Shown here: piece by piece, positions 18,604-45,685 of the stretch | Position numbering within the stretch: position 1 is the first letter of the stretch | Layout of the letters: the number at the start of each line of letters is the position of its first letter | Origin: Pseudomonadota bacterium | GTDB lineage: Bacteria > Pseudomonadota > Gammaproteobacteria > Steroidobacterales > JBCBZW01 | Length of the DNA: 52,959 nt | Direction: 5' to 3' | Assembly: GCA_039815145.1 (NCBI GenBank) | Contig: JBCBZW010000027.1 | Coordinates: forward strand, 1 to 52,959 | Made by a program: the position numbers and the translations under genes | The notes under the pieces: model-generated | The model's database searches: none | Told to the model about the DNA's origin: nothing | Seen by the model: the letters and a program-made list of their open reading frames with translations, nothing else

Positions 18604-18667
18604 CCCTCTACTCCTCAGGTGTTCGCGCCTCGGTTCCGGCGAAGCCGGCGAGACTGATGGCTGGCGC

Positions 18668-21328: not shown

Positions 21329-21824
21329 CCGTGATACCCCTTATCGGTGTTTACGGAGAGCTTAGGCGACCACGATGGGCTGATCAACGCGAGGGGGCTC
21401 GACGAATTCGCGCAGCTCGACCACTCGCAGGGTACCCAATTCGGGTGGGCCCTTGGACTTGACGAATAAGCTGCTTCTCGGAGGCCTCGACGGACATGAC
21501 TCACCCGCTTGCGACTGCGAATCTCGCCTGGGACAGACGCCGGCGGCGGTAGCGGCCTCGCAAGCACGGGTCAATTCAAGCTACTCTCAGCGAACAGAAA
21601 GGTGTACCGCAGCGCCGCCACGAATACGCCTCGCCGCGATCGTCGCCGAATGACATCGATCGTAGGTAAACGCCCCAAGAAGGCCTGCGGCGATATCGCT
21701 GACAACCCTCCCAGGAGGGTATCCGACAGCGTGCCGGACTCCAGACGACACAGGACCAAAGGCAAGTGATTCGCTAGTTTCATCGCACACGCGCGACACC
21801 GCGCCGCAACAAGAGAGACAGGGA
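21329..21824. other. 496-bp divergent promoter region of the surface-protein island
   Basis: No coding frame with acceptable codon use was found. It separates the leftward beta-helix/Kelch operon from the rightward FG-GAP gene, so it should hold both promoters. The only clear structure is a tight inverted repeat, ACCCTCC-CA-GGAGGGT, at 21705-21720. Confidence 0.5.
21705..21720. repeat. Tight inverted repeat ACCCTCC-CA-GGAGGGT
   Basis: Perfect 7-bp arms and a 2-bp spacer, about 105 bp before the FG-GAP start codon. This suits a dimeric regulator site better than a terminator. Confidence 0.55.
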
Positions 21825-23840: not shown

Positions 23841-24254
23841 TTAGGCGCAAAGGTCGCGGCCGCTGACGATCGAGGCCGGTCGTCAGTGGCGGTGACACTG
23901 ACGCCCCACCGCAAGGCGCGCTGGCAGTTGCACCAGAGCAACTAGCCACACCACCATTCGCCTCTGTTGGTTCGCGTTATGACGCGAGACCGACCGGTCT
24001 GCTGGCGGTCGAGCTTTTAGCGCCCCAACCGCGACGCCCACCTCAATACCACCTTGAGTAGTACCCCCTCAGCGAGGCTAGGGACTCACACGCGCCGTCG
24101 CACCGGCACCACCCGGCAAACCCTGGTATGCACACAGCGCCTACCACGTTCGCTACCACGATGACTTGCTATTCCTAGGACCATCCCGCGCCGAGAACCG
24201 TTTCGCGCCGCGCAGGTACTCAGCCCCAGTATGGTCCAACGACGGAGTAGTCAC
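23841..24254. other. 414-bp intergenic region between FG-GAP and cadherin genes
   Basis: No gene is supported here. It starts with a strong hairpin 19 bp after the FG-GAP stop and later contains a CGACC/GGTCG repeat. The cadherin gene's own promoter should lie near its right end. Confidence 0.5.
23859..23890 (+). terminator. Hairpin after the FG-GAP gene, terminator-like
   Basis: GCCGCTGACGA pairs with TCGTCAGTGGC (11 bp with one G-U) around a 10-nt loop, 19 bp after the stop. There is no T-run downstream, so termination would be weak, Rho-assisted, or the stem may serve mRNA stability. Confidence 0.45.
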
Positions 24255-27200
24255 ATGAGATGTAAAGACGCGGCAATCTGGACATGGCTCCGCCGCCATC
24301 GCACCGCGGTCCTTGGAGCATTGTCCGCCGGCGCCCTCGTCGCATGTGGCGGAGGTGGCGGTGGAGCCGCGGCCCCCGTCGAGGACGCTCAGCAGCAGTT
24401 GCCCCCGAACAACGAGGCGCCCGTGTTCTCCGGAGTGTTGGCCGTGCAGGCGGAGGAGAACACCGATGTGCTCGTGCCGGTGGAGGTGGCCGACCCCGAT
24501 GGCGATGCGATCACGCTGTCGCTTGCCGGCGGGGACGCCGCGCTCTTCTCCGTGGATGGGCTCGCAGTACGCGCCAACGCCCCCTTCGACTTCGAAGCAC
24601 CCACCGATGGGGACGAGGATAACGTCTATCGCTTCACCGTCACGGCCAGCGACGGCATCGATCCGATCGACCTCGACTTCACCGTGACCGTCACGAATGC
24701 CTCGGACGTCGCCCCAGACTTCGCTGGAACCTTCGATGCCCCCGTCCCCGAGGGCGACATCGCCCTGCTGCCCTTCGACGTGTTCGACGCTGACGGCGAC
24801 GCCGTAGCGCTGACGCTGGAGGGCGCCGACGCAGCGCTGTTCACCCTGGATGCCGAGGCGCTCACCGTCGAGGCGAACCAGGCATTCGACTTCGAGCTCC
24901 CCGTCGACGCTGACCGCGACAACGTGTACGAATTCCAAGTCATCGCGAGCGACGGCCTGGCGGCCACGGAGCAACCGTTCTCGGTCGAGGTGATCAACAT
25001 CTCCGATAACGCCCCGGTGTTTGCTGGGGAATTCGAGCAGACGAGCACCGAGAACACGGCGGTCGACATCCCCATCGAAGTGACCGACGCCGACGGCGAT
25101 GCCCTGACCCTCACCCTCGGGGGCACCGACGCGGCGCTCTTCTCACTGGATCCCGTGACCGCGACGGTCACCGCCAACGCGCCCTTCGACTTCGAGCAAC
25201 CGGCCGACGCCGACGGTGACAACCTCTACGAGTTCTCCGTCACCGCCTTCGACGGCACCATCGCCGTCGAACAGGCCTACCAACTCGGGATCACCAACGT
25301 GGACGAAGGCTCACCCGAGTTCGATGGTGTGTTCGACGAGGTGGCCGCCGAGGGCGAGGTCACGGTGTTCACCATCGAGGCGAATGATCCCGACGGTGAT
25401 GAGCTCACCCTGACGCTTGGGGGCGCTGACGCAGTCGCGGTCATCTTCGACCCTCTCGCCGGTACCGTCACCGCAGGTCCCTTCGATTTCGAGGTGCCGG
25501 CAGACGTCGACGCCGACAACCGCTACATCTTCACCGTGACCGCCGCGAATGACGGCGGGCAGTCCACCACCCAGACCTTCTCACTGCAGGTGCTGAACGT
25601 CTCCGACACCCCGCCGGTGTTCTCGGGCGATTTCGACGTGACCGCCGCGGAGAACGTGGCCGTCGACATCCCGATTGCCGTCAACGATCCGGACGGCGAC
25701 GCGCTCACCGTCGAGCTCGCCGGTGAAGATGCCTCGCTGTTCACGCTGGACACCGACGCCCTCACCGTCAGCGCCGCGGCGCCCTTCGACTTCGAGGATC
25801 CGGCAGGTGCCGGCGGTGACAACGTCTACAACTTCTCCGTCACCGCCTCCGATGGCACCGTCGTCGTCGAACAGGCCTATCAGCTCGAGATCACCAACGT
25901 GGACGAGGGCTCGCCCGAGTTCGTCGGCGTGTTCGACGAGGCGGCCGCTGAGGGCGATGTCACCGTGTTCACCATCGAGGCCAACGACCCCGACGGTGAT
26001 GCGCTCACCTTGACGCTCGGGGGCGCCGACGCAGCGGCGGTCACCTTCGACGCGCTCGCCGGTACCGTCACCGCAGGCCCCTTCGATTTCGAGGCGCCCG
26101 CAGACGTCGACGGCGACAACCTCTATGTCTTCACCCTAACGGCTGAGAATGACGGCGGACAGGCCACCACCCAGGCCTTCTCCCTGCAGGTGCTGAACGT
26201 CTCGGACGAGGCGCCGGAGTTCTCAGGTGACTTCGACGTGATCGCCCAGGAGAACGTGGTCGTCGACATCCCGATTGCCGTCGACGACCCGGATGGTGAC
26301 GTCATTACCCTGGAGCTCGCCGGCGAGGACGCCGCGCTGTTCACGCTGGATGCCAACGGCCTCACCGTCAGCAGCACCGCGCCCTTCGACTTCGAGAATC
26401 CCGCGGACGTTGATGCAGACAACGTGTACACCTTCACCCTCACCGCAAGCGACGGCGTCGCCAGCACGGTGCAACCCGTTTCGCTGACGATCGAGGACAT
26501 CGCTGAATCGGCGCTCGAGACGCTCGGGGCGATCGCCCTGGTGGGTGGTCAGGCGCCGCTGTTCGAATTCTTCTCCAGCGAGATCGTGTCCCTGGCCGAT
26601 CTCAATGCAGATGGCCACGACGAGCTTGTCGTATCCGCGCAGTTCGCCTCCTCGGACCCCGATCTCGCTGAAGCCGGTCGCGTCACGATCCTGAACGGCG
26701 CGTCGTTATCCGCGCTCACGCAACCGGTCACGTCCGCATCGGATCTCCGGTCCGGCGATCGGGTGCTGATCGAAGGCCCGGAGCAGGAGCGCACCTTAGG
26801 TACAGCCCTCGCCACCGTGGCGATGCTCGATGGCGATGAGCTGCCAGAGCTGGTCATCGCCCAGGCCACGCCCGAAGTTGCCGTGATCCCGGGCGTGGCG
26901 TTGCGCGACGCACTCGCAGGCGACGGCACCCTCGACGTCGATGAAGTGGGCGACAGCGGCATGGTGGGCGGCGCCCTGGTGCGCAGCACGAACCGGGACG
27001 ACCGCGGCGACTTTGGACGTGAGCTCACCGCGCTGGGCGACATCGACGGCGACGGCATCAGCGAGCTGTTCATCTGCGCCAAGAGCGCCGAGGTTAACGA
27101 CGAGTTCCGCGTCGGCAGGGGTTTCGTGGTGTTCAGCACTAGCTTGGCCGCGACCATCGCAGCCAACGGGTCGATCGATCTGGCCGCCCGCGATCCCCTG

Positions 27201-28118
27201 CAAACGATCGTGCTGGAGGGCGAGGGCGACGACTTCGGGCTCTGCGACACCGTCGCGAGCGGCGGCGATGTCGATGGCGACGGCCTGGGCGACGTGCTCG
27301 TGGGCGTCTCCCCCGGCTTCGACGATCCTGGCCTCGACCGCGAGGCGTTCCTGATCTTCGGCGCAGCCCTCGCCGCCGAGCGCGCTGCCGATGGTGTGAT
27401 TCGCATTGACGATGCGTTGGTGGCGGACGGTGGGGCGATTCGCTTCGCCCTCACCGAGCCGGACAGTCGCGCAGATGTCGGCGTCGCCCCCCTGGCCGAC
27501 ATCAACGGCGATGGGTTCGATGAGCTGCTCCTGGGCGACCGCCGGGCCCGGGGCGAACAAGGCGAAGCCTACGTAGTGTTCGGCGGTGACACGCTGGGCG
27601 CGGCCAGCGGCGGCGTGGTCAACCTCGAGGAGGTGGGGACGACCGTGGCCGGGGTGGTGATGCGCACGGACAGCACGATCGCCCTGGCCGGGAATCGAGT
27701 GACACCCGTCGGTGACGTCGACGGCGACGGCCGCACCGACATCCTCATCTCCGCCATGCGCGGCGGTGGTCAGTTCGACGATGGACGTGTCTTCCTCGTG
27801 TCCGGTAGCGAGCTGGTGAATGGCGCGCAGATCGACCTGGCGGAGATCGGGGCAGACCCTGAGGAAGTGGCAGTGTTGCCCGCCCGCGGTGTGGAGATCG
27901 CCGATGTGCCTCACAGCTTCTTTTCGGAGCCGCCGATCATTGCGGCGGCCGGTGATGTGGACGGTGACGGACTCGATGACATTGCGATCGGTACCGAGCA
28001 GTTCTTCTTCGGCGAGGTCTACCTCATCAGTGGCCGGTTGCTCGCGCAGACGATGGGGCCTGGGGAGCGCCAGCAGCGCCTGAGCATCGTGCAGTTGCTC
28101 CCTGAGCTCGCGCCCTAG
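24255..28118 (+). CDS. Giant surface lipoprotein: about seven cadherin-like domains followed by FG-GAP repeats
   Basis: 1287 residues from ATG 24255 (GGAG 8 nt upstream). A hydrophobic N terminus ends in a lipobox (A-L-V-A-C-G-G-G). Residues ~50-760 contain about seven ~100-residue cadherin-like domains, with recurring A-P-V-F-S-G-x-F, E-N-T-x-V, D-x-D-G-D-x-L-T-L, D-A-A-L-F-x-L-D, P-F-D-F-E and F-T-V-T-A-S-D-G. Domains 3-6 form two copies of a 200-residue unit offset by exactly 600 bp. Residues ~770-1280 switch to FG-GAP units (G-D-V-D-G-D-G-x-D-D-I-x-I-G). Calcium-dependent adhesion is inferred from both domain types. The combination is a fusion of two adhesin families seen separately nearby. 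Confidence 0.88.
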   Translation: MRCKDAAIWTWLRRHRTAVLGALSAGALVACGGGGGGAAAPVEDAQQQLPPNNEAPVFSGVLAVQAEENTDVLVPVEVADPDGDAITLSLAGGDAALFSVDGLAVRANAPFDFEAPTDGDEDNVYRFTVTASDGIDPIDLDFTVTVTNASDVAPDFAGTFDAPVPEGDIALLPFDVFDADGDAVALTLEGADAALFTLDAEALTVEANQAFDFELPVDADRDNVYEFQVIASDGLAATEQPFSVEVINISDNAPVFAGEFEQTSTENTAVDIPIEVTDADGDALTLTLGGTDAALFSLDPVTATVTANAPFDFEQPADADGDNLYEFSVTAFDGTIAVEQAYQLGITNVDEGSPEFDGVFDEVAAEGEVTVFTIEANDPDGDELTLTLGGADAVAVIFDPLAGTVTAGPFDFEVPADVDADNRYIFTVTAANDGGQSTTQTFSLQVLNVSDTPPVFSGDFDVTAAENVAVDIPIAVNDPDGDALTVELAGEDASLFTLDTDALTVSAAAPFDFEDPAGAGGDNVYNFSVTASDGTVVVEQAYQLEITNVDEGSPEFVGVFDEAAAEGDVTVFTIEANDPDGDALTLTLGGADAAAVTFDALAGTVTAGPFDFEAPADVDGDNLYVFTLTAENDGGQATTQAFSLQVLNVSDEAPEFSGDFDVIAQENVVVDIPIAVDDPDGDVITLELAGEDAALFTLDANGLTVSSTAPFDFENPADVDADNVYTFTLTASDGVASTVQPVSLTIEDIAESALETLGAIALVGGQAPLFEFFSSEIVSLADLNADGHDELVVSAQFASSDPDLAEAGRVTILNGASLSALTQPVTSASDLRSGDRVLIEGPEQERTLGTALATVAMLDGDELPELVIAQATPEVAVIPGVALRDALAGDGTLDVDEVGDSGMVGGALVRSTNRDDRGDFGRELTALGDIDGDGISELFICAKSAEVNDEFRVGRGFVVFSTSLAATIAANGSIDLAARDPLQTIVLEGEGDDFGLCDTVASGGDVDGDGLGDVLVGVSPGFDDPGLDREAFLIFGAALAAERAADGVIRIDDALVADGGAIRFALTEPDSRADVGVAPLADINGDGFDELLLGDRRARGEQGEAYVVFGGDTLGAASGGVVNLEEVGTTVAGVVMRTDSTIALAGNRVTPVGDVDGDGRTDILISAMRGGGQFDDGRVFLVSGSELVNGAQIDLAEIGADPEEVAVLPARGVEIADVPHSFFSEPPIIAAAGDVDGDGLDDIAIGTEQFFFGEVYLISGRLLAQTMGPGERQQRLSIVQLLPELAP
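25020..26219 (+). repeat. Two tandem 600-bp copies inside the cadherin gene
   Basis: Matching segments repeat at exactly 600-bp offset. For example, TCGAACAGGCCTA occurs at about 25267 and 25867, and GACATCCCGATTGCCGTC at about 25665 and 26265. Each copy encodes two cadherin-like domains. The copies differ by scattered, mostly synonymous changes. The boundaries given are approximate. Confidence 0.75.
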
Positions 28119-35746: not shown

Positions 35747-36033
35747 GCGTCGCCTCGCTGCAGGGCGTACGGCGTGGGCATCGCCCCACGTCGTGCGCCC
35801 GCGGCTTCTTTGTCGCTGCGCTCGAGCGCGCGGCGCATGTCTCGCCGGGGTAACCCACTTAGCTCAATTTGGAACGAGGACAAGCAATGAAAACGCTGGT
35901 TCGTCGCCAGCTCGGACGCTTAGCGCCCCTACCCCGATGAGCCGAATCACGCAGCTTTCGCGCCTAGGGATATGCAAGCCCATGGCGAAGACCACGAGCG
36001 TCGTCATCGCCCCAGTATCCCGACGGAGTCCCC
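35747..36033 (+). other. Intergenic region with two tiny overlapping open frames
   Basis: GAGGA 7 nt before ATG 35887 opens a 17-codon frame ending at 35940. Its TGA overlaps the ATG (35937) of a 34-codon frame ending at 36041. The second frame's end overlaps the start of the acidic protein gene. Neither peptide is hydrophobic or recognisable. They may be a translated leader controlling the downstream gene or chance frames. Confidence 0.3.
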
Positions 36034-36771
36034 ATGATTAGTCTTTCCGGCATCAATGCGAAGTTGTTCGAATCACTCGATCCTAAGCTGATCAGCACGC
36101 CGATCCTGGACTCGGCCGGGCTGCAGCAGGCGCTACAGACCCTCGGCAAGGGCGCGCTCAACGATCTGGCCTTCCCGGACGACCTGCTAGAACGGCTTCA
36201 AGACTCAGATGATCCCACCTCAAACGCGGACAACTCGGACGTGTGGGATGCCTATGTCTCCCAAATGGCGAACGATCCCGACGAGACGGGAGCCTCGGTG
36301 CGCGAGCTCGACGCAGCGCTGCGCGAACTGGCCACGGACCCAGCGCGCGTCGACAGCGCCGAAGTGGATGCCCTGGTGGCCAACCTCGCCGACGGCCTGC
36401 CTGTGGGGGATGCCAGCGCTGGGCAGATCACCTCTGCCTTAGGCGGCGGCGTGCTCACCAACATCAAGGAGTCCATTGGCAACCTGCAGCAGATGCTGGA
36501 GGGTCGCCTGGAGACGCTGGGTGAACTCTCCGCCGAGGACGTCTCCGGCGCCGTGGACGAACTGCGCGAGGCGCCGTCAGACGAGGAGGCCGTGGTGGAC
36601 GCCGCGCCGGAGCAGACTTACGAAGTGGAACTGGTGGAGGACATCGAGGAGGTGGACGCGCTGGACGCCACTGTCATCGACGCGCAACCCGACGCGTGGT
36701 TCGCCCCCGAGGACAGTGATCCGCCGGGGGATGACGGCACCGACGTGAGGAGCGATGTGCTCACCGACTGA
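36034..36771 (+). CDS. Acidic cytoplasmic hypothetical protein
   Basis: 245 residues with a good ribosome site (GGAG 7 nt upstream). No signal peptide, no cysteine and a very acidic composition, especially the last ~80 residues (V-E-L-V-E-D-I-E-E-V-D-A-L-D, then D-P-P-G-D-D-G-T-D). The first ~180 residues are predicted helical with L-x-E-L-D-A-A-L-x-E-L-A heptad-like spacing. I do not recognise a family. The acidic tail suggests a flexible or DNA-mimic-like region, which is inference only. Confidence 0.65.
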   Translation: MISLSGINAKLFESLDPKLISTPILDSAGLQQALQTLGKGALNDLAFPDDLLERLQDSDDPTSNADNSDVWDAYVSQMANDPDETGASVRELDAALRELATDPARVDSAEVDALVANLADGLPVGDASAGQITSALGGGVLTNIKESIGNLQQMLEGRLETLGELSAEDVSGAVDELREAPSDEEAVVDAAPEQTYEVELVEDIEEVDALDATVIDAQPDAWFAPEDSDPPGDDGTDVRSDVLTD

Positions 36772-37019
36772 GCCTGCGCGCGGATGCCCTGACCACCACC
36801 GCGACGATGTCACCGGGGCTTAAGCGTAGAACTTCGCGGCGAGAGCTGGGTAGCAGGGCGACAGCGTTACAGTGGATCAGCTCGGTGCCGTGCAATGCCC
36901 CGTTCTTTTGAGTGGGCTGTCACGTTTTCCAACGGTAGGCCGAGAAGCGGGCGATGCTCGGGAGCACGAGAACGAGCGTTAGGTGCTAAAGGCGAGGATA
37001 CCCCGCGCTACCCGTGCTC

Positions 37020-37754
37020 TTAGTTGCCGCGGCTTTCGCTCTCTAGCCAGAAGATATCGAACAGTTTGTAGCCGCCGGAACTACCTGAAGAGCGGTCCAC
37101 GAACTTGGGCACGACGTAGTGGATGTGGGGTTTCGTTTCGAAGCTCGTGCGGGGGTGAGGCGTAACGGCACCGCCCGAGACGGTCATGGGGAAGCTCTTG
37201 ACGACACGCCCTTCCACCTCGACCACGAACCTGTAGTTGCCTTCCCGGGCGAGCAGTCCTTCCAGCGTGAACGCGTAGTTACCCACGGGGCTCTGGGGGG
37301 TGGCGAGGGATTGCCAGGGGCCTTGTCGATGGAAGTTCTTACCCGGTTGGAAGGGATCGCCGCTTTCCTCAACCTCCATCTGAAAGGGGAAGGAGGTGAT
37401 GGGCTCGCCATCCTTGTCCACGCTCATCACGTAGCTGCCCGCCTCCCCGAGACTCAGGGTGGGCACTCCGAGGGAACCGAGACCGTCGAAGACGGGATAC
37501 TCAGTCCACTTCTGCACTTGCAGGGAAGCCTTGCCTTTCACAGCTCCGCTCCGATCGCGAACCACGAGCTCGTAGGTCGCGTCCCCCTCAGGCGGAAAGA
37601 CGAGACACAGACCGTCCGCCAAGAAGTTCCCATTGTTCTTGTAGAAGCCGACGTCGAGCAGCGAAACGAGTTCGGCCGAAGGCTGTTGGGCCTGGAGCGA
37701 CGAAGCGAGGAGCATGATTGCTCCGGCGAGAAGGGAAGCGCGTCGATATTGCAT
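37020..37754 (-). CDS. Secreted hypothetical protein
   Basis: 244 residues from ATG 37754, chosen because it begins a signal peptide (M-Q-Y-R-R-A-S-L-L-A-G-A-I-M-L-L-A-S-S). The mature part holds two beta-sandwich-like stretches with repeated Y-x-L-V-V-x-x-R and N-Y-x-F-V-V-E-V-E-G-R-V-V-K-S-F-P-M patterns, ending in a charged tail. It contains only one cysteine. The layout recalls periplasmic proteins with two Ig-like modules, but no family is recognised. It follows the esterase-DsbA fusion by about 115 bp on the same strand and may belong to that operon. Confidence 0.65.
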   Translation of the reverse strand: MQYRRASLLAGAIMLLASSLQAQQPSAELVSLLDVGFYKNNGNFLADGLCLVFPPEGDATYELVVRDRSGAVKGKASLQVQKWTEYPVFDGLGSLGVPTLSLGEAGSYVMSVDKDGEPITSFPFQMEVEESGDPFQPGKNFHRQGPWQSLATPQSPVGNYAFTLEGLLAREGNYRFVVEVEGRVVKSFPMTVSGGAVTPHPRTSFETKPHIHYVVPKFVDRSSGSSGGYKLFDIFWLESESRGN

Positions 37755-37868
37755 GGCGGTGAGCTTATCAGCGAACAGACCGCACGGAAACGTGGGGGGC
37801 GGGCTACGGCCGCCAGGCGGTCTTTGGCTCACCATCCGCCTGATTCGCCGGACTCAAGAGTGAAAGTG

Positions 37869-39242
37869 CTATTCGCTGAGGCTCTTCAGATACGCCCTTA
37901 ACACGTGCGGATCCCAGCCGATGTGTTTTGTCCGCACATCGTCCGCATCAATCAGGAACCCAGGCGTACCGACGATTCCTAGAATGTCTAGGGCCGCCAT
38001 GTTGTTTTGGATTTCGCCCAGATGAGCCTCCACGACTGGGTCGATATTCATATCATCGACGAGAACTCCGACGTGTTGACGAATCGATTCGATCGCCTGG
38101 TGAGCGCCTATCCGATCGTTAGACGCCAACAAGTCGGCGTAGACTGCCTTGTACTGTGCTGGGTTATCAATCGAAAACGTCAGTGCGGTCGCTCTTACTG
38201 ACCCCTCGCCGAAAACCGGAACGTCCACCGCGACCAACCGAACGTTCGGGTAGGCGGCCAACAAATTCGGCAGTTCACGATGGGCGACTCTACACGATGG
38301 GCAGTTGTAGTCGAAAAACTTGTAAATCGTAATAGCGCCCTTCGGATTCCCAGACACGCCGCCACGACTCACTGCGCGGCGCAATACACTGTCGACCAAG
38401 GCCCCAGCGGAACCCTGACTTTTGGCCACTGCTGAGCCCACGGCCGACAGCGGCGGCGGCGGCGATGCCGTCATTTCCTGACCGCGCTCGCGAGCATCGA
38501 TCCAAGTAGCGATATCCCGGCGACCTGCGGCGCTGACGACATGCGGCACGGAGTAGACGTTGAGCTCGACCCGTCGGCCGACCTCAATCAGCCGCGAGAC
38601 TGCGAGATCGGTGTCCTCTGCTCGAACACTCGGATCTCGTGTGCCGTGGCCGATCAGGACGGGCGCGGATACGTCGGATACGACAGTTGCGTCAATCGCC
38701 GGAAGGCGTCCAGCGAAGCCCACGTAGCCTGCCGCGTCCGACGGCCGCAGGAAGGCGGCGGACAATGTCATCGTGGCGCCTTGGCCAAAGCCGACGAGGT
38801 AAACTCGTTCGGGATCAGTTCCGAGCCAGGCCGTTACTGCATCGATGCCACGGAACAGGCGATCGCTAGCTTCGATGATCGCGTTGGAATCAATGACTGG
38901 ACCTGCGCCGCTCGATACAGGGAACCAGGCATAACTTCCTGGCTCGAGCGCTTCGAAGCCTCGTATGGCCACATACGTGTGAGGTGTTGACGGCTCGATT
39001 TTGACGAGGGCCGCAATCTGCTGCTCGTCCATACCGTAGCCGTGCAAACCGACAATCAGAGCAAACCGTTCCGCACCCTCCGGGGGGAGCCGGAGGACGC
39101 GAACGACAATCTCGCCTGATGACGTTGAAAGCCCTGTCGCCCCATCGGCCAGAATGCGGACCTCGGGCGATTCACCTACGCTGTCGCAGGCGGTCAGCAA
39201 TGACCACAGCACAAGCGCCACAAGACCTCTTCCCGGACTCAC
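37869..39242 (-). CDS. Lipoprotein fusing a nucleophile-lacking esterase fold to a DsbA-like thiol oxidoreductase
   Basis: 457 residues from a GTG at 39242. A short signal ends in a lipobox (L-T-A-C19). Residues ~25-250 have the phospholipase/carboxylesterase fold: L-H-G-Y-G near 67, the nucleophile elbow V-G-F-G-Q-G-A, Asp203 in G-T-R-D, and His234 in V-P-H-V. The elbow should read G-F-S-Q-G, but the codon is GGC, so position 153 is Gly and the Ser nucleophile is missing. Residues ~300-457 are a DsbA/DsbC-like domain with active site C314-P-S-C317 (F-F-D-Y-N-C-P-S-C) and the cis-Pro loop G-T-P-G-F. It is likely periplasmic and membrane-anchored. It follows the two SRPBCC genes by 19 bp. Confidence 0.85.
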   Translation of the reverse strand: MSPGRGLVALVLWSLLTACDSVGESPEVRILADGATGLSTSSGEIVVRVLRLPPEGAERFALIVGLHGYGMDEQQIAALVKIEPSTPHTYVAIRGFEALEPGSYAWFPVSSGAGPVIDSNAIIEASDRLFRGIDAVTAWLGTDPERVYLVGFGQGATMTLSAAFLRPSDAAGYVGFAGRLPAIDATVVSDVSAPVLIGHGTRDPSVRAEDTDLAVSRLIEVGRRVELNVYSVPHVVSAAGRRDIATWIDARERGQEMTASPPPPLSAVGSAVAKSQGSAGALVDSVLRRAVSRGGVSGNPKGAITIYKFFDYNCPSCRVAHRELPNLLAAYPNVRLVAVDVPVFGEGSVRATALTFSIDNPAQYKAVYADLLASNDRIGAHQAIESIRQHVGVLVDDMNIDPVVEAHLGEIQNNMAALDILGIVGTPGFLIDADDVRTKHIGWDPHVLRAYLKSLSE

Positions 39243-39261
39243 AGGTACCTATCCGGTCCGA

Positions 39262-40347
39262 CTAGTGGCCGCCGCCGGCAGCCTGTAGGGCTGCGGTCTT
39301 CCGAGGATGAACCGCATCGTTTTCGATGAAATATTTCGCATCGTCGACCGCGAAACCAACCTGCTGTGTCATCGCACTGCGAAAGAACGCGATGGCCTGC
39401 GGTGGCACACCCGCGGCCGTTGCAGCGGTTATCTCCACCGTGACTTGTGTGGTGTTGCGGTCGATCTCATTCACTAACCAGACAGCTTCGCCGTAAGTCA
39501 CAAACGGCGGCATTCCCTGATCAATGGAGTACGCGAAAAGACCTTCCTCTTCATCATATTGGGTTATGGTTTCCTTCGTTTCGCCATTGAAGGCAGGAAT
39601 AAAGCAGGCTCGCTGATCCCCTACGATTGTGTCGCCGTTGCGATCTGTCACGGTGATCTCGCCAATGTTGCTTGACCAAACATGGGCGTCGCCAAAGCCA
39701 TCCGCGACAACCGCCCACACGTCGGCTTTACTCGCCTTGAGGATTCTGGTCTGACGGACGATCGCGGGATTGAAACCGCTGTTGCTGCCGTGGTCTGCAA
39801 AACCCCCATACTTGGCCGACAACTTCGCGAGCGCGCCACTCAGAGATTCGCTCATCGACGCTGCGGCATCCGTGTCAGCAGCGTTGAAGTAGTGATTCCA
39901 GGTTACGACTGCCCCCTTCCTTTCATCGGCGGACGTGATTGTCAGCACCGCAAGGTGATCAGATATGCCCATGGGATTCGTATCGCCGATTGAATAGGCG
40001 AACGTACGTGACGTCGCGTCGTCGGCGACTACGGTCTCGCTGACGCTTCCGCCGCCCCGGAGCCTTACGGTGCGTCGTTCACCAACCTTGGCGCTAGTGA
40101 TGGAGCGAACGCCGTCGAACAGGCCAGCCACGTGATTCGACTTGGTTAGATACTTCCATACCGCACCAGCTGACTTACTGAGTTCCGCCGAGCGGGAGAG
40201 TTGCAGCGGCGCTGAAGTATGCTCATCAACGTTTACAGCACCATCAATTCTTGGCGGCATTTGTGGTGCTTCTTGAGCTCCTGCGCTGAGGTGGAACGTG
40301 AACGCGGCAACTGCGACAAACGTAATTGTTAACCGAGACTCGATCAT
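39262..40347 (-). CDS. Secreted protein with two SRPBCC-like domains
   Basis: 361 residues with signal peptide (ending S-A-G-A-Q-E). GGAGA lies about 8 nt before the ATG. Residues ~50-190 and ~195-345 are two SRPBCC/START-like units (S-K-S-A-G-A-V-W-K-Y-L and A-S-K-A-D-V-W-A-V-V starts, each followed by strands with F-A-Y-S-I). The second unit's end, I-E-N-D-A-V-H-P-R-K-T, matches the end of the neighbouring single-domain protein. SRPBCC folds bind hydrophobic ligands such as lipids, sterols or aromatic compounds. Export of a double SRPBCC protein is unusual. It lies in one leftward operon with the SRPBCC gene 80 bp upstream and the DsbA fusion downstream. Confidence 0.8.
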   Translation of the reverse strand: MIESRLTITFVAVAAFTFHLSAGAQEAPQMPPRIDGAVNVDEHTSAPLQLSRSAELSKSAGAVWKYLTKSNHVAGLFDGVRSITSAKVGERRTVRLRGGGSVSETVVADDATSRTFAYSIGDTNPMGISDHLAVLTITSADERKGAVVTWNHYFNAADTDAAASMSESLSGALAKLSAKYGGFADHGSNSGFNPAIVRQTRILKASKADVWAVVADGFGDAHVWSSNIGEITVTDRNGDTIVGDQRACFIPAFNGETKETITQYDEEEGLFAYSIDQGMPPFVTYGEAVWLVNEIDRNTTQVTVEITAATAAGVPPQAIAFFRSAMTQQVGFAVDDAKYFIENDAVHPRKTAALQAAGGGH

Positions 40348-40427
40348 GGGGATATCTCCTCTGACTAACCGCGTGAGGTCGCCGTTAGTTATCCAACAGA
40401 CGTTGTAAAATAGGGCAAATAAAAAGC

Positions 40428-40949
40428 CTAGGCCGCTGCGCGGGCTTTCTGAGCCTGCTTGGACTTGGCTCTTTCAGTTTTCCGCGGATGCACTGAACCT
40501 TGCTCCAAGTAGAATTTGAACTCCTCCAGAGACTCGTCGATGGCCTTGCCGAACTGTTTCTTCATCATCCAACCCATCAGAAAAGCGAACGGCTGCGCCA
40601 AGTCAGCTGTCATCGTCATTGTCGCGGTGCTGGCATTGGGTCCAGCCGGCTGGATGGCCCAACGTGCCTGAATTGACTTGACGAATCCTGGCAATGCCTT
40701 TCCGGTGACGGCATAGGCAATGAGTCGGCGACTCTCGTCGTAGTCGACTATCGATTCATCGAACTCGCCCTGTGACGTGCTACAAACACGGCCGCCCGCC
40801 GGCGCCCCGCTTGGTGCGGCGTTGTTGTTACGCGAGGTCGACACAAAGACGTTGCTAGCCCATTTGTCGACATCGGCAAACTCGGGGCCGATGACCGCCC
40901 AAGCCTTGTCAGCCGTTGTCGCGATTCTGATTTTGCGTTGAATATCCAT
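40428..40949 (-). CDS. SRPBCC-family protein (polyketide cyclase/lipid-transport-like)
   Basis: 173 residues, no signal peptide. AAGGAG 8 nt before the ATG is strong. The opening M-D-I-Q-R-K-I-R-I-A-T-T-A-D-K-A-W-A-V-I and the closing F-K-F-Y-L-E-Q-G-S-V-H-P-R-K-T match the SRPBCC pattern, and the V-H-P-R-K-T end matches its neighbour. The last ~15 residues are Lys/Ala-rich. It is the first gene of the leftward operon facing the TetR pair, so those regulators are the natural candidates to control it. A hydrophobic ligand is likely, the reaction unknown. Confidence 0.82.
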   Translation of the reverse strand: MDIQRKIRIATTADKAWAVIGPEFADVDKWASNVFVSTSRNNNAAPSGAPAGGRVCSTSQGEFDESIVDYDESRRLIAYAVTGKALPGFVKSIQARWAIQPAGPNASTATMTMTADLAQPFAFLMGWMMKKQFGKAIDESLEEFKFYLEQGSVHPRKTERAKSKQAQKARAAA

Positions 40950-41040
40950 CCTTAACTCCTTCGTAAACTCCTGTTTATGCTTGATTCTTCATTCCAACCG
41001 ATCCACCAGTCGTTACGATTCCTTGCGGCCGCTAGGCTTG

Positions 41041-41116
41041 TTTTCCAACGTCGGTTGTATTACGAATATCGACCTTATAGCGCAACCAATTTCTTTTTAC
41101 AATCAGTGTTGGAAAA
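41041..41116. promoter_or_regulatory. Nested inverted repeats in the SRPBCC/TetR divergent promoter
   Basis: TTTTCCAAC (41041-41049) and GTTGGAAAA (41108-41116) are perfect 9-bp arms. Inside them GGTTG (41053-41057) faces CAACC (41083-41087). This is where a TetR repressor controlling both directions would bind, near the start of the first tetR. Confidence 0.5.
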
Positions 41117-41134
41117 TGAGCCCCGGAGCCTTCG

Positions 41135-41719
41135 ATGGCACGACCCCGCAACTTCGACGAAGAAAAAGCACTGCAGGCAGCGATGCTGACCTTTTGGCGC
41201 CATGGCTACGATGGCACGACGTACAAGATGCTTTCTGAGGCCACGGGCATTGACGTCAAAGGGTTGTCGAACGTTTTCGGTAGCAAGGATGAGATATTCG
41301 ATAAGGCGGCCGGCGCCTATCGACAGATGGCACATGGTGTCGTCAACGAGTCCTTTTCCGAGCCTGGCATCGAGGCATTGATCGCATTTTTTGAGCGCAT
41401 GGGCACGCCACCTGCCTCGGATGAGGACATGTCCAACATGGGCTGCATGCTGGTCAACACGATCTTCGAACTGCACCGCTTTCAGCCAAGCATGCGCGAG
41501 CATGTCGAGGCGTACCGAAGGATGTGGTTAGCTGCGTTTGAAAACTCCTTGCGAGCAAGTGAAATCGCTAAACCGCGTGAACGCGCGGAGTTCTTGGTCG
41601 GCTCGATGTGGGGTGCGCTCAGTGAAATTCGGTTGGTCCGTTCGAAAACAGCGGCCGCTCCTCTCTCTCAGATCGCGGTGGACACGCTGCGGTCCTGGCA
41701 AGCGGAAACAGCGGCATAG
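41135..41719 (+). CDS. TetR-family regulator, first of a tandem pair
   Basis: 194 residues, CGGAG 7 nt before the ATG. The N-terminal helix-turn-helix reads A-R-P-R-x-F-D-E-E-K-A-L, then T-T-Y-K-M-L-S-E-A-T-G-I-D-V-K-G-L-S-N-V-F-G. The C-terminal domain includes the conserved G-C-M-L-V-N-T segment of this TetR subgroup. It is divergent from the SRPBCC operon. The following gene is a clear paralogue, so this looks like a duplicated repressor. Ligand unknown, possibly the same hydrophobic compound bound by the SRPBCC proteins. Confidence 0.9.
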   Translation: MARPRNFDEEKALQAAMLTFWRHGYDGTTYKMLSEATGIDVKGLSNVFGSKDEIFDKAAGAYRQMAHGVVNESFSEPGIEALIAFFERMGTPPASDEDMSNMGCMLVNTIFELHRFQPSMREHVEAYRRMWLAAFENSLRASEIAKPRERAEFLVGSMWGALSEIRLVRSKTAAAPLSQIAVDTLRSWQAETAA

Positions 41720-41757
41720 AGCCCAACCCGGGAACCAACACATGCAAAGGTGGCGCT

Positions 41758-42363
41758 GTGGCAAGACCACGTGAATTCAACGAAGACAAGGTCATCGATG
41801 CCGCAATGTACTGTTTTTGGCAGAACGGCTTTGATGGCGCAACGATTTCCGATTTGGAGGAAGCGACCGGTATCAGCCGGATCAGCCTCTACAACACCTT
41901 TCAAGACAAGGAAGGTTTGTATCTGGCGGCCCAGCGTCGTTACCAGCAGATGGCCTTCAAGATGGTAAGAGAAATGCTTGCCGTACCGGATTTGAACGCG
42001 GTTAAGCATTTCTTTTCGCTACATCTCGACGGGGACCCGAGGCAGGAAGCCGCGCGTCTCGGTTGCATGATGGTCAATACCGTTCTGGATTCCACGGACG
42101 TCAGCCAGCCAGTACTTCAGTACGTTCGCTCTTATCGTGAAGGCCTGACCGACATATTCGAAGAATATTTGGAGCAGTGCCGAGATAGTGGAATCATCCG
42201 CACCGATCTGAATCTTCGTGCCTGTGCATCGTTCATTCAGACTTCGATGTGGGGCGCAATGGCCGTGTCGCGGCTCTACAATGACTTCTCAGAAAACCTT
42301 CCGCATGTTTCGATCGTGCTTGACACGATCGACAGTTGGCGAGTTCATGCCACGGCGGGATAG
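41758..42363 (+). CDS. TetR-family regulator, second of a tandem pair
   Basis: 201 residues from a GTG at 41758 with an AAGG-type site upstream. Its helix-turn-helix (A-R-P-R-E-F-N-E-D-K, then A-T-I-S-D-L-E-E-A-T-G-I-S-R-I-S-L-Y-N-T-F-x-D-K) and G-C-M-M-V-N-T segment closely parallel the preceding regulator. It starts 38 bp after the first regulator's stop, so both are on one transcript. The recognition helix differs from its partner's (S-R-I-S-L-Y-N versus D-V-K-G-L-S-N), so the two probably read different operators. Confidence 0.9.
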   Translation: MARPREFNEDKVIDAAMYCFWQNGFDGATISDLEEATGISRISLYNTFQDKEGLYLAAQRRYQQMAFKMVREMLAVPDLNAVKHFFSLHLDGDPRQEAARLGCMMVNTVLDSTDVSQPVLQYVRSYREGLTDIFEEYLEQCRDSGIIRTDLNLRACASFIQTSMWGAMAVSRLYNDFSENLPHVSIVLDTIDSWRVHATAG

Positions 42364-42408
42364 TTTCGCGATCCCCCAAGGAGCGATTCACAGGTGCTAG
42401 GGGCGACC

Positions 42409-42454
42409 TGATCTGACAGTTATCGACCTCGATAGTCGTGCAGTTGTCAGATCA
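42409..42454. terminator. Nested perfect inverted repeats between converging genes
   Basis: TGATCTGACA and TGTCAGATCA are perfect 10-bp arms. Within them TATCGA-CC-TCGATA forms a second perfect arm pair. It sits between the ends of the second tetR gene and the nrdJ companion gene, so a bidirectional terminator is plausible. It lacks T-runs. Confidence 0.5.
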
Positions 42455-42489
42455 ATTCGGCGAACTGACCTTGCTCTCGGTGCACAGAA

Positions 42490-43272
42490 CTACCCGCACT
42501 TACTATCCCCGCAGTTCAAGCAAGTCATACAGTTGTCGATACTGACCGCCGCCACCGTATTGCACTTCCCACACAACTGCGCCCCCTCCGGGAACGACGA
42601 CGTCTCCGCAAACGCATCCTGCTGAGAAGACTGCGCCTCGAACTCGGCCCGCTTCTCCTCGATGAGCTTCTGCTGCTGCTCATCCGGCCCAACGTCGGTT
42701 AACAGCCCGATTCGCTTCAGGTGGCGCTCGATCACGTAGCCCAGCTCGGCGATGATCGACGGCATGAACACGCCGCCGGACTTCCAATAACCCCCACGCG
42801 GATCGAACACGGCCTTCAGCTCATCCACCAGGAAGGTTACGTCCCCACCCTTGCGGAACACGGCCGAGATCACCCGCGTCAGGGCCACGATCCACTGGTA
42901 GTGATCGAGGTTTTTCGAGTTGATGAACACCTCGAAGGGCCGACGCTGCTCGTGCGGTGTGCCTTCGTTCAAGATGATGTCGTTGATCGTCACGTACATC
43001 GCATGGTCGGACACCGGTGTCTTCACCTTGTAGGTGGAGCCGATGAGCATGTCCGGGCGATCCACGGACTCGTGCATCCGAATGACCTCCGCCTTGGTCG
43101 GCGGGGCGGGGGCCGCGGCGGGCGCCGCCGGTGCAGGCGCGGCCGCCGCAGCAGGGGCTGGCTCCGCAGCAGGCGCGGGCGCCGCGGGCGCCGCAGCGGT
43201 CTCCTCCGCAGCGGGTTCCTCGTTCTTGCCGACGCGGTATTTGGTGATCTTCTTGGCGATCTTCACGGCCAT
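42490..43272 (-). CDS. nrdJb: Class II ribonucleotide reductase companion subunit with TSCPD zinc finger (NrdJb-like)
   Basis: 260 residues. An Ala/Pro-rich linker (~20-58) joins a short basic N terminus to a core resembling the C-terminal region of large class II reductases. The C terminus carries the zinc finger L-C-G-K-C, then N-C-M-T-C-L-N-C-G-D-S-K-C-G, which is the TSCPD-type finger. In split class II reductases this piece helps assemble or re-reduce the catalytic subunit. It is transcribed after nrdJ with a 130-bp gap carrying a hairpin. The repeat-rich linker has an unusual A-P-A periodicity. Role by analogy with the pseudomonad NrdJab arrangement. Confidence 0.85.
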   Translation of the reverse strand: MAVKIAKKITKYRVGKNEEPAAEETAAAPAAPAPAAEPAPAAAAAPAPAAPAAAPAPPTKAEVIRMHESVDRPDMLIGSTYKVKTPVSDHAMYVTINDIILNEGTPHEQRRPFEVFINSKNLDHYQWIVALTRVISAVFRKGGDVTFLVDELKAVFDPRGGYWKSGGVFMPSIIAELGYVIERHLKRIGLLTDVGPDEQQQKLIEEKRAEFEAQSSQQDAFAETSSFPEGAQLCGKCNTVAAVSIDNCMTCLNCGDSKCG

Positions 43273-43359
43273 GGTGTCTTCCTCGAGTGTCGGGGCGGCC
43301 CAGCCAGCAGCATGTCGCTGCGGCGGGCGCCTACCTTGAATGCTGTGTCAGTGGGGCCG

Positions 43360-43396
43360 GGCCAGGGCGATTGCTACCTCAAGCATCGCCCTGGCC
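43360..43396 (-). other. 12-bp perfect hairpin between nrdJ and its companion gene
   Basis: GGCCAGGGCGAT and ATCGCCCTGGCC flank a 13-nt loop, 6 nt after the nrdJ stop codon. It would form in the nrdJ-nrdJb transcript. It could act as an mRNA-stabilising or partial-termination element setting the ratio of the two subunits; there is no T-run for full termination. Confidence 0.6.
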
Positions 43397-43402
43397 GGTC
43401 GC

Positions 43403-45547
43403 TCAGAACTTCCCGTAATACCCTTCCTTGAGGGCGTCGTAGAGGTTGGCGGCGGTGTGGGTCTCGCCGTCGTACTCCACCTCTTCGTCGCCGCGCAGGC
43501 TGACGGTCGAACCATCCTCGAGGGTGAACTCGTAGGTGGTGTTCTTGAGGTCATCTTCCTTCACGAGCACGCCCTGGAAGGCTTCGGGGTTGAAGCGGAA
43601 GGTGGTGCAGCCCTTCAGCCCCTTCTCGTAGGCGTACATGTAGATGTCCTTGAAGTCCTCGTAGGGGTAGTCCGTGGGCACGTTGGCCGTCTTGGAGATC
43701 GAGGAGTCGATCCAACGCTGGGCGGCGGCCTGGATGTCCACGTGCTCGCGCGGCGTGATCGCATCGGAGGTCACGAAGTAGTCGGGCAGGGCCGTCTCGC
43801 CCTCACCGTTCGGCATCGCGGCCTCGTTTACCAGCGCGCGGTAGGCGAGGAGCTCGAAGGAGAACACGTCCACGCGTTCCTTGGTCTTGCGGCCCTCGCG
43901 GATCACGTTGCGAATGTAGTGATGGGCGAAGCTGGGCTCGATGCCGTTGCTGGCGTTGTTGGCGAGCGACAGCGAGATCGTGCCCGTGGGCGCGATCGAC
44001 GAGTGGTGCGTGAAGCGAGCACCCACGTTAGCCAGCTCGTCCACCAGCTCCGGCGCGATACCAGCCACCTGCTGCATGTAGCGGCTGTAGCGGGCGTGGA
44101 GCACGCGGCCCGGCACCTGGTCGCCCACGCGCCAGCCGTCGCTGGCCATCTCCGGCCGCTTAGCCAGCATGTCGGCGGTCACCTCGAACTGCTGATTCAT
44201 GATCGGCGCGGGGCCCTTCTCGCGGGAGAGCTCGAGGGCGGTTTGCCAACCGGCCAGGGCCAGCTCCTTGGAGACTTCCTCGGTGAACTCCAAGGACGCC
44301 TTGGCGCCATAGCGCATGCACATCATGGTGATGGCCGAGCCGAGGCCTAGGAAGCCCATGCCGTGGCGGCGCTTGGCCATGATCTCGTCGCGCTGGGGAC
44401 CCAAGGGCAGGCCGTTGATCTCCACCACGTTGTCCAGCATGCGGGTGAACACCTTCACCACTTCGCGGAAACCGTCCCAGTCGAAGCGCGCCTGAGGCGT
44501 GAAGGGGTCGACGACGAAGCGCGTCAGGTTCACGGAGCCGAGCAGGCAGGCGCCGTAGGGCGGCAGGGGCTGCTCACCGCAGGGGTTGGTGGCGCGGATG
44601 TTCTCCGTCCACCAGTTGTTGTTCTTCTCGTTGATCCGGTCGATCAGCACGAAGCCCGGCTCAGCGAAATCGTAGGTGGAGGTCATGATCAGATCCCACA
44701 CGCGCTGGGCGGGCATCTGCTTGTAGACCTTGCACGCCACCAGGCCCGCATCGTTGCGGATGTACTTGTCCGCCGTGGGCCACTCGCGCCACACCACCTG
44801 ATCGGGGTCGTCGAAGTCGAGGCTCTCGAACTCGGGATCTTTCTCGCTCACGGGGAAGGCGAGCTTCCAGTTCTTGCCCTCGCGCACGGCGTTCATGAAC
44901 TCGTCCGTGATCAGGAGCGAGAGGTTGAACTGGCGTAGGCGGCCGTCTTCACGCTTGGCGCGGATGAACTCGACCACGTCCGGGTGACCCACGTCGAAGG
45001 TGCCCATCTGCGCGCCGCGGCGACCGCCGGCGGACGACACGGTGAAACACATCTTGTCGTAGATATCCATGAAGGACAGGGGGCCCGAGGTATAGGCACC
45101 GGCGCCGGAGACGTACGCGCCGCGCGGGCGCATGGTGGAGAACTCGTAGCCGATGCCGCAGCCCGCCTTCAGGGTGAGGCCGGCCTCGTGCACGCGCTCC
45201 AGGATGTTGTCCATGGAGTCATGGATGGTGCCGGACACGGTGCAGTTGATGGTGGAGGTGGCGGGCTTGTGCTCCTGGGCGCCGGCGTTGGAGAGGATGC
45301 GGCCGGCGGGCACGGCGCCGCGGCGCAGGGCCCACAGGAAGCGCTCGTACCAGAGCTCGCGACGGTCCTCGGTCTCCACCTCGCAGAGCGCGCGGGCGAC
45401 GCGCTTGAAGCTGTCATCCAGGGTGGCGTCCACCGGCTCGCCGGTCTTGGCCACCAGGCGGTATTTGCGGGCCCAGATATCCTGGCTCGCGTCCTGCAAC
45501 GGGATCTCGGTGTCGTCGCGCTCAGGCAAGGCTAGTTCGCTGCTCAT
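43403..45547 (-). CDS. nrdJ: Adenosylcobalamin-dependent (class II) ribonucleoside-diphosphate reductase, catalytic subunit
   Basis: 714 residues from ATG 45547, with GAGGGG about 5 nt upstream; an in-frame extension to 45673 is rejected. The finger-loop motif N-P-C-G-E-Q-P-L-P-P-Y-G is intact, as are G-C-G-I-G-Y-E-F-S-T-M-R-P, the A-P-T-G-T-I-S-L segment and the N-terminal cone-like region. Class II enzymes reduce ribonucleotides using adenosylcobalamin and need no oxygen. The missing C-terminal zinc-finger part is supplied by the next gene. Two NrdR-box-like palindromes lie about 91-138 bp upstream. B12 dependence links functionally to the cobalamin riboswitch in the same window. Confidence 0.95.
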   Translation of the reverse strand: MSSELALPERDDTEIPLQDASQDIWARKYRLVAKTGEPVDATLDDSFKRVARALCEVETEDRRELWYERFLWALRRGAVPAGRILSNAGAQEHKPATSTINCTVSGTIHDSMDNILERVHEAGLTLKAGCGIGYEFSTMRPRGAYVSGAGAYTSGPLSFMDIYDKMCFTVSSAGGRRGAQMGTFDVGHPDVVEFIRAKREDGRLRQFNLSLLITDEFMNAVREGKNWKLAFPVSEKDPEFESLDFDDPDQVVWREWPTADKYIRNDAGLVACKVYKQMPAQRVWDLIMTSTYDFAEPGFVLIDRINEKNNNWWTENIRATNPCGEQPLPPYGACLLGSVNLTRFVVDPFTPQARFDWDGFREVVKVFTRMLDNVVEINGLPLGPQRDEIMAKRRHGMGFLGLGSAITMMCMRYGAKASLEFTEEVSKELALAGWQTALELSREKGPAPIMNQQFEVTADMLAKRPEMASDGWRVGDQVPGRVLHARYSRYMQQVAGIAPELVDELANVGARFTHHSSIAPTGTISLSLANNASNGIEPSFAHHYIRNVIREGRKTKERVDVFSFELLAYRALVNEAAMPNGEGETALPDYFVTSDAITPREHVDIQAAAQRWIDSSISKTANVPTDYPYEDFKDIYMYAYEKGLKGCTTFRFNPEAFQGVLVKEDDLKNTTYEFTLEDGSTVSLRGDEEVEYDGETHTAANLYDALKEGYYGKF

Positions 45548-45637
45548 GTATCCCCTCAGTTTCCCCTGGTGTGCCGCCCGCGCGTCGACGGGGGCAGGAT
45601 GGCGTCGGCGATCGCGACGACCTCGTCGCCCGCCCGG

Positions 45638-45685
45638 ACCCCATATTGTGTGGTTTGGTGGCTCGCTTACCACTAGATCTAGTGG
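45638..45685 (-). promoter_or_regulatory. Tandem NrdR-box-like palindromes upstream of nrdJ
   Basis: CCACTAGATCTAGTGG (45670-45685) is a perfect 16-bp palindrome matching the NrdR box pattern (C-A-C-T-A...T-A-G-T-G). A second, weaker copy, ACCCCATATTGTGTGG, starts exactly 32 bp earlier at 45638. NrdR boxes occur as such a pair about 31-32 bp apart in front of ribonucleotide reductase genes. NrdR represses when dATP/ATP are high. Confidence 0.8.

Follow-up and report, generated by a model that had tools for sequence, protein, structure and literature searches.

A rare esterase–DsbA fusion family with an SRPBCC partner, and a member with glycine at the esterase nucleophile position

The stretch of DNA that we analysed (the window, 52,959 nucleotides) carries a gene for an esterase domain fused to a DsbA-type thiol oxidoreductase domain. 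Comparison with relatives indicates that this fusion is a rare but real, little-known protein family, with three known members in the data examined, and that each member is directly preceded by a gene for a double-SRPBCC protein. The window copy has Gly where its relatives have the nucleophilic Ser, and is probably a dead esterase joined to an intact redox domain. Taken as a whole, the explanation that we favour, and to which we give somewhat better than even credence, is that of a fusion family with an SRPBCC partner, one copy of which was acquired by the window's genome, lacks the nucleophile and retains a working redox domain. It is important to note that the family and its partner are the stronger part of this finding. 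The Gly is one base in one genome, and the lost serine by itself carries modest weight, having been observed in a single genome.

Results

The fusion gene and its domains

The original prediction placed an esterase fold fused to a DsbA domain at 37869–39242 of the window, and the fusion and its location, on the reverse strand, are borne out by the open reading frame and by Pfam (Table 1). The frame of 457 residues opens with a GTG start codon. Its match to Abhydrolase_2 (PF02230) scores 60.5 bits against a curated cut-off of 23, and the best solved structure for this part is 4fhz, a Phospholipase/Carboxylesterase (E 6e-17, query residues 46–265), which supports the view that the esterase fold is kept in the window copy. 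Beyond a Pro-rich linker, the C-terminal part matches Thioredoxin_4 (PF13462; 39.3 bits, cut-off 23.2) and, over residues 305–431, DSBA (PF01323; E 2.7e-8, 34.3 bits, cut-off 25.6). Among solved structures, the best match is 3gyk (E 1.5e-19, query residues 295–432), and 4gxz, named suppression-of-copper-sensitivity protein (E 9.7e-11), 4xvw and 6nen match this domain as well. We take 4xvw and 6nen to be ScsC and 3gyk to be Com1-like. A profile search of the solved structures gave a concordant result. Together with the profile match, the domain has the CxxC cysteines C314 and C317 and a proline, P427, at the cis-Pro position.

Table 1. Positions, in window coordinates, of the fusion gene, its functional sites and its surroundings
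Feature	Position	Strand	Basis
Fusion gene: lipoprotein-like signal, Abhydrolase_2 esterase domain and DsbA-type domain, 457 aa	37869..39242	(-)	ORF, Pfam, solved-structure matches
Signal peptide with lipobox-like L-T-A-C19, Asp at +2	39186..39242	(-)	direct reading
Esterase (Abhydrolase_2) domain, residues 61-248	38499..39062	(-)	Pfam, E 2.7e-16
Codon 153, GGC (Gly), nucleophile position	38784..38786	(-)	direct reading; relatives Ser
Asp203 codon (triad acid)	38634..38636	(-)	direct reading and alignment
His234 codon (triad base)	38541..38543	(-)	direct reading and alignment
DsbA/thioredoxin domain, residues 296-437	37932..38357	(-)	Pfam Thioredoxin_4, E 9.8e-10
C314-P-S-C317 redox site	38292..38303	(-)	direct reading and alignment of relatives
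Pro427 codon (cis-Pro position)	37962..37964	(-)	direct reading and alignment of relatives
Double-SRPBCC protein (Polyketide_cyc2 in two stretches), 361 aa, signal-peptide-like N-terminus	39262..40347	(-)	Pfam; 19 bp upstream of fusion
Single SRPBCC protein, 173 aa, first gene of leftward run	40428..40949	(-)	Pfam
Imperfect dyad, 32-nt arms, 72% complementary, between SRPBCC and TetR 1	41035..41122		dyad search
TetR-family regulator 1, divergent	41135..41719	(+)	Pfam
TetR-family regulator 2	41758..42363	(+)	Pfam
Low-GC block (4.7 kb), no counterpart in congener G001 except 85-bp repeat	about 37835..42491		GC, DNA comparison
85-bp element at right edge of block, repeated in G001, several copies near contig ends	42394..42478		

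The protein had also been proposed to be anchored as a lipoprotein, and this is likely for the window copy: Cys19 follows a hydrophobic signal in a lipobox-like L-T-A-C, making it a probable lipoprotein. The Asp at +2 would, by the E. coli rule, suggest retention in the inner membrane. Against a general anchor, the N-termini of the two fusion relatives described below are signal-peptide-like but have no lipobox Cys, and the anchor looks peculiar to the window copy.

Two computed results for this gene were set aside. A tRNA-Sec called by ARAGORN at 39070–39159 lies within the coding frame of the fusion and was taken as a false positive. An AlphaFold model, made with an alignment of the window protein to L093, L015, L016 and L092, reached a pLDDT of 42.2 and a pTM of 0.34; the L015 and L016 rows of that alignment are frames that probably start upstream of the real genes.

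Gly replaces the nucleophilic Ser of the esterase domain

A change from Ser to Gly at residue 153, with Asp203, His234 and the C-P-S-C site intact, was the central observation of the original prediction, and it survives re-reading of the assembly, in which the codon is GGC. The elbow of the window fusion is thus G-F-G-Q-G and departs from G-x-S-x-G at the Ser. All of the standalone esterase relatives that we aligned have Ser in this column (31/31, a count that leaves out 27 plasmid esterase matches and some of those from genomes of the order of G716, see below), and the same 31 rows, of which L003, L062 and L063 are distant and L060 is truncated, have Asp203 (31/31) and His234 (31/31). Both Cys and the Pro are present in the 31 loci aligned to the DsbA part. 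These alignments come from 67 collected loci, 63 of which gave a tblastn match (the window's own, 31 esterase and 31 DsbA); the remaining four were dropped. A further esterase relative, on viral contig locus L093, reads GFSQG. Judged by these alignments, the departure at position 153 is not alignment noise. In the rest of the domain, the window fusion keeps 17 of the 24 columns in which 85% or more of the standalone relatives agree, including the catalytic Asp, the His and the HG-x-G loop.

The original prediction would have been at odds with close homologues of this architecture that carry Ser, and proposed looking for conservation of Gly153 among such fusions. A search for the architecture found two, L113 and L114, and neither has the Gly: at 40–44% identity they are only moderately close, and both have Ser (codons AGC and AGT) together with Asp, His and CxxC. 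To the extent that such identity is close, they contradict the original prediction at the level of the family. Because these two full-length relatives have a complete triad, Gly153 is probably derived, one base from AGC, and on present evidence it appears private to one genome. The window's GGC is a single transition (A-to-G) from AGC, a codon used for the Ser by 6/31 of the standalone relatives, the other 25/31 using TCN.

There are two explanations under which the esterase domain of the window copy would still be active. The first is that this one base is wrong, through an error in sequencing or in the consensus, or represents a variant carried by a minority strain, and that the true protein has Ser153. 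The one-base distance from AGC, the draft state of the genome (295 contigs) and the restriction to one genome all agree with this, but it is improbable a priori that an error would hit precisely the nucleophile codon, the rest of the frame is open and both domains align along their whole length, and we regard this explanation as unlikely. The second is that the pocket remains catalytic in spite of the missing nucleophile, for example through His234 activating water. Activation of water by the His is sometimes described where the nucleophile of a serine hydrolase has been mutated, and both Asp203 and His234 are intact here; yet we saw no example of such an arrangement in the family examined, and we give this explanation very little credence.

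The fusion is a rare family

The two full-length relatives of the fusion are encoded at L113:7969–9351 in genome G1230 (44% identity over residues 35–451, E 2.3e-94) and at L114:8408–9775 in genome G1308 (42% identity over residues 37–452, E 3.0e-91). They are the 2/341 genomes with the fusion in the order of G716, the genome that in a search of the phylum gave the strongest DsbA match beyond the class of the window (1.3e-20), and both belong to the same phylum as the window. Within the genus of G1308, the fusion is found at E values up to 1e-40 in 1/54 genomes, G1308 itself. A peptide-pattern search of genome contigs returned two loci with the DsbA part alone, in Sphingomonadales records, a hint that the lineage of the fusion relatives is sphingomonad-like.

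In each of the three fusions both domains lie in one open frame, and the three form one clade in the esterase tree (34 rows, support 100/99) as well as in the DsbA tree (51 rows, support 100/97), the roots being placed for drawing only. A long-branch warning in the esterase tree concerns other groups and not the fusions. What fits these trees best is a single old fusion event. L015 and L016 join the fusions in the DsbA tree, a placement on which we do not rely, as long branches meet there.

Full-length matches are otherwise absent from the material searched. Besides the window gene itself there was none in 59 relative genomes, the window's own included, and the best match in the congener G001 was partial, at E 3e-5. 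Among the candidates scored there was likewise none in 369 genomes of the class, 398 of the phylum or 396 of the order; in these overlapping draws, as in those from the order and class of G716, the first 4–5 candidates per genome were scored. A profile of the three fusions gave no full-length match in 307 genomes of the class of G716, a search in which L113 and L114 were not among the matches listed and which therefore had no positive control. On plasmids, tblastn found no record covered to 80% by the window fusion (0/120), nor any with the L114 fusion as the query (0/41). Viral contigs gave no full-length fusion match; scans of them with the esterase and DsbA alignments yielded one DsbA locus and one esterase locus, one scan being empty. 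Judged from titles and the openings of abstracts, no paper returned by literature searches describes this esterase–DsbA fusion.

A double-SRPBCC gene precedes all three fusions

In all three loci, the gene directly upstream of the fusion encodes a double-SRPBCC protein. The proteins from the relatives are 41–42% identical to that of the window, and Polyketide_cyc2 matches each of the three in two stretches. The gap between this gene and the fusion is 19 bp in the window and -1 and 24 bp in the relatives, the gap in L113 being 17 bp if the second ATG is the start. The presence of the same gene before all three fusions makes this a conserved pair. The double-SRPBCC protein has a match in 1/59 relative genomes, which is the window's own, and none on the plasmids.

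Around the pair, the window differs from the two relatives. In the window, a gap of 80 bp separates the 361-aa double-SRPBCC gene from the 173-aa SRPBCC gene, and the dyad between the latter and the divergent TetR gene is a possible TetR operator. Scans for promoters and terminators did no better than on shuffled sequences, and Rfam had no match in 36000–43500. Near the L113 fusion, Pfam identifies DsbD, LysR and two SRPBCC genes, with counterparts in L114 by tblastx and ORF lists; near the L114 fusion it identifies a CMD-family gene, whose counterpart in L113 was found in the same way. The DsbD-type gene lies at L113:3769–5847 (DsbD_N, DsbD_TM and thioredoxin, by Pfam) and at L114:4208–6271 (by similarity to the L113 copy), in both relatives near the two-gene unit and outside it. 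When six proteins of the relatives' neighbourhood were searched against the window, DsbD, LysR, CMD and the two single SRPBCC proteins had no match within it and the double SRPBCC alone did. By tblastx, L113:1789–9351 and L114:2244–9775 share a common neighbourhood with the DsbD-type reductase, LysR, CMD and further SRPBCC genes.

The window copy lies in a low-GC block

The block that holds the fusion, its partner and the regulators has a GC content of 0.563 versus 0.648 for the rest of the window, and each of 195 other overlapping stretches of the same length is at 0.619 or above. GC3 is 0.61–0.67 in the five block genes versus 0.75–0.91 in the eight neighbours measured. The flanks of the block are 86–94% identical to G001, which puts the contig in its proper genome and speaks against contamination; inside the block only the 85-bp repeat matches. 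The two flanks lie on different contigs of G001, and for that reason there is no clean empty site. Composition and comparison thus point to the block as likely acquired horizontally, while its absence from G001 could also be due to loss in that genome. The block DNA matched none of the plasmids searched.

The 85-bp element, possibly the end of a mobile element, has a single match in G000 and eight in G001, of which about five lie close to the ends of contigs, and contains a short inverted repeat (42404–42418/42445–42459); ORF listings did not tie it to a known mobile element. Next to the block, 42490–45673 encodes a ribonucleotide reductase resembling the B12-dependent type and apparently split into a large ORF (43403–45673) and a C-terminal TSCPD ORF (42490–43272) whose N-terminal part is rich in Ala and Pro; G001 has matching DNA for both ORFs. 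Further away, the very large ORFs of 15490–28118 match Kelch, Ig, DUF11, cadherin and FG-GAP domains and probably encode surface proteins.

On one reading of Gly153, the acquired gene is dispensable and its esterase step may simply be decaying, Gly153 being a recent loss that brought no new function. The one-base change from AGC, the foreign-looking block with no counterpart in the congener and the intact remaining catalytic residues, as expected soon after a loss, all speak for this; the 457 codons that stay open with no frameshift or stop, and the intact DsbA site, speak against it. We place this account a little short of an even chance.

No significant relaxation of the esterase domain is detected

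The identity of the window copy to its fusion relatives is 47–51% in the esterase domain, and so is not below the 40–42% of the DsbA domain. When changes unique to the window were compared with those unique to the relatives, the two domains did not differ significantly (10:7 vs 4:8, Fisher p 0.26; 13:8 vs 6:7, p 0.48; L003, L062 and L063 excluded). Between L113 and L114 the order is reversed (74% esterase, 81% DsbA), and the branch lengths (window esterase 0.81 vs 0.63–1.01; DsbA 0.54 vs 1.05–1.28) hint at a relatively faster window esterase. That no significant relaxation was detected would fit a binding role, and would fit a loss of recent date or an erroneous base just as well.

The original prediction saw the first domain as a module for binding, by which the redox domain would be directed to a lipid or ester ligand. 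As an account of the architecture this fails, because the fusion elsewhere kept the esterase residues; the window copy may still have a binding or scaffold role. In its strongest form, Gly153 would be fixed and maintained by selection in the window copy only, and the esterase domain would guide the redox domain towards a partner, be it a lipid, an ester or a protein. The kept Asp, His and HG-x-G loop, the identities and the lack of a significant excess of window-only changes are in its favour, and a precedent exists in the neuroligins, whose esterase fold has no catalytic serine and is used for binding (PMC12931606). The Gly is nevertheless found in one genome, both fusion relatives keep Ser, and the reversed identities of the relatives and the branch lengths point the other way, leaving it a rather doubtful reading.

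Discussion

The four readings of Gly153 given above overlap with our preferred explanation, which concerns the family as a whole and would run as follows. The fusion, which is probably exported, consists of a domain of the carboxylesterase/acyl-thioesterase type (Abhydrolase_2) and a ScsC-like DsbA domain. Since both active sites are complete in the two relatives, the ordinary mode of working is probably two-step: the SRPBCC partner would bind a hydrophobic ligand, the esterase would hydrolyse an ester or thioester, and the DsbA domain would exchange thiols, presumably kept reduced by a membrane reductase of the DsbD/ScsB type. Such feeding of the fusion by DsbD is plausible by analogy, because ScsB keeps ScsC reduced in three species (PMC8900818). 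The window copy was probably acquired horizontally, together with its SRPBCC partner and the two TetR regulators, this being the direction of transfer that we infer. What looks like a single A-to-G change removed the nucleophile, and going by the residue, catalysis as a serine esterase should no longer occur. Thiol–disulfide exchange by the DsbA domain should persist, tethered to the membrane if the lipobox is used, with the esterase domain probably remaining as a folded scaffold or ligand pocket.

A bolder reading is that the family forms a hitherto unrecognised pathway of the periplasm, linking the cleavage of (thio)esters with control of thiol redox state, in which SRPBCC would hold a hydrophobic ligand, acyl or otherwise, the esterase would release a thiol by cleaving a thioester and a DsbD-fed DsbA domain would handle that thiol; in the window copy, loss of the nucleophile would turn cleavage into capture and yield a membrane-tethered, ligand-guided redox protein. 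We offer this as speculation, and think it improbable in this full form.

The fusion and its SRPBCC neighbour are a small, patchily distributed gene unit, which suggests a periplasmic link of lipid or ester chemistry with disulfide exchange. They also supply a ready comparison of two relatives that have a complete esterase site with one copy that has no nucleophile. Should the window copy still function although its serine is gone, the importance of the esterase domain lies in binding; otherwise the gene is an acquired one in decay.

Comparison with known systems

The Abhydrolase_2 carboxylesterases and acyl-protein thioesterases (4fhz, SOBER1 6avw, 1auo, 3cn7) share the fold of residues 46–265, as judged by sequence, and the window copy has in common with them the HG-x-G loop, Trp106, the GFxQG elbow, the Asp and the His. 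Unlike them, it has Gly for Ser, is fused to DsbA and starts like a lipoprotein. To the NCBIfam esterase PRK11460, which we take to be YpfH, the window fusion scores 40.7 bits, far below the cut-off of 191.

With the ScsC-like DsbA proteins the fusion shares the GNPxG...FFDYNCxxC core, the later Pro and export, and, in its two relatives, a DsbD-type gene nearby. In the fusion an esterase precedes the DsbA part and occupies the place of the N-terminal helical segment of some ScsC-like proteins. That segment, ScsC_N (PF18312), is absent from the Pfam matches of the window fusion; it was found in L030 alone among the six DsbA-type relatives scanned, and is therefore no defining mark of the wider group. 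Salmonella ScsC, too, is described as having no long N-terminal region of the kind found in trimeric ScsC (PMC8900818).

The neuroligins, which according to PMC12931606 kept the hydrolase fold, lost the nucleophile and are used for binding, are eukaryotic cholinesterase-type proteins with no redox domain; we cite them as a precedent and do not claim them as relatives. The closest comparison is that with the L113 and L114 fusions, which have the same whole architecture at 40–44% identity and a double-SRPBCC gene before each. These two have Tyr where the window copy and 31/31 standalone relatives have His199. They have the Ser nucleophile, no lipobox, and LysR and DsbD-type genes nearby, whereas the window copy has Gly, a lipobox and TetR.
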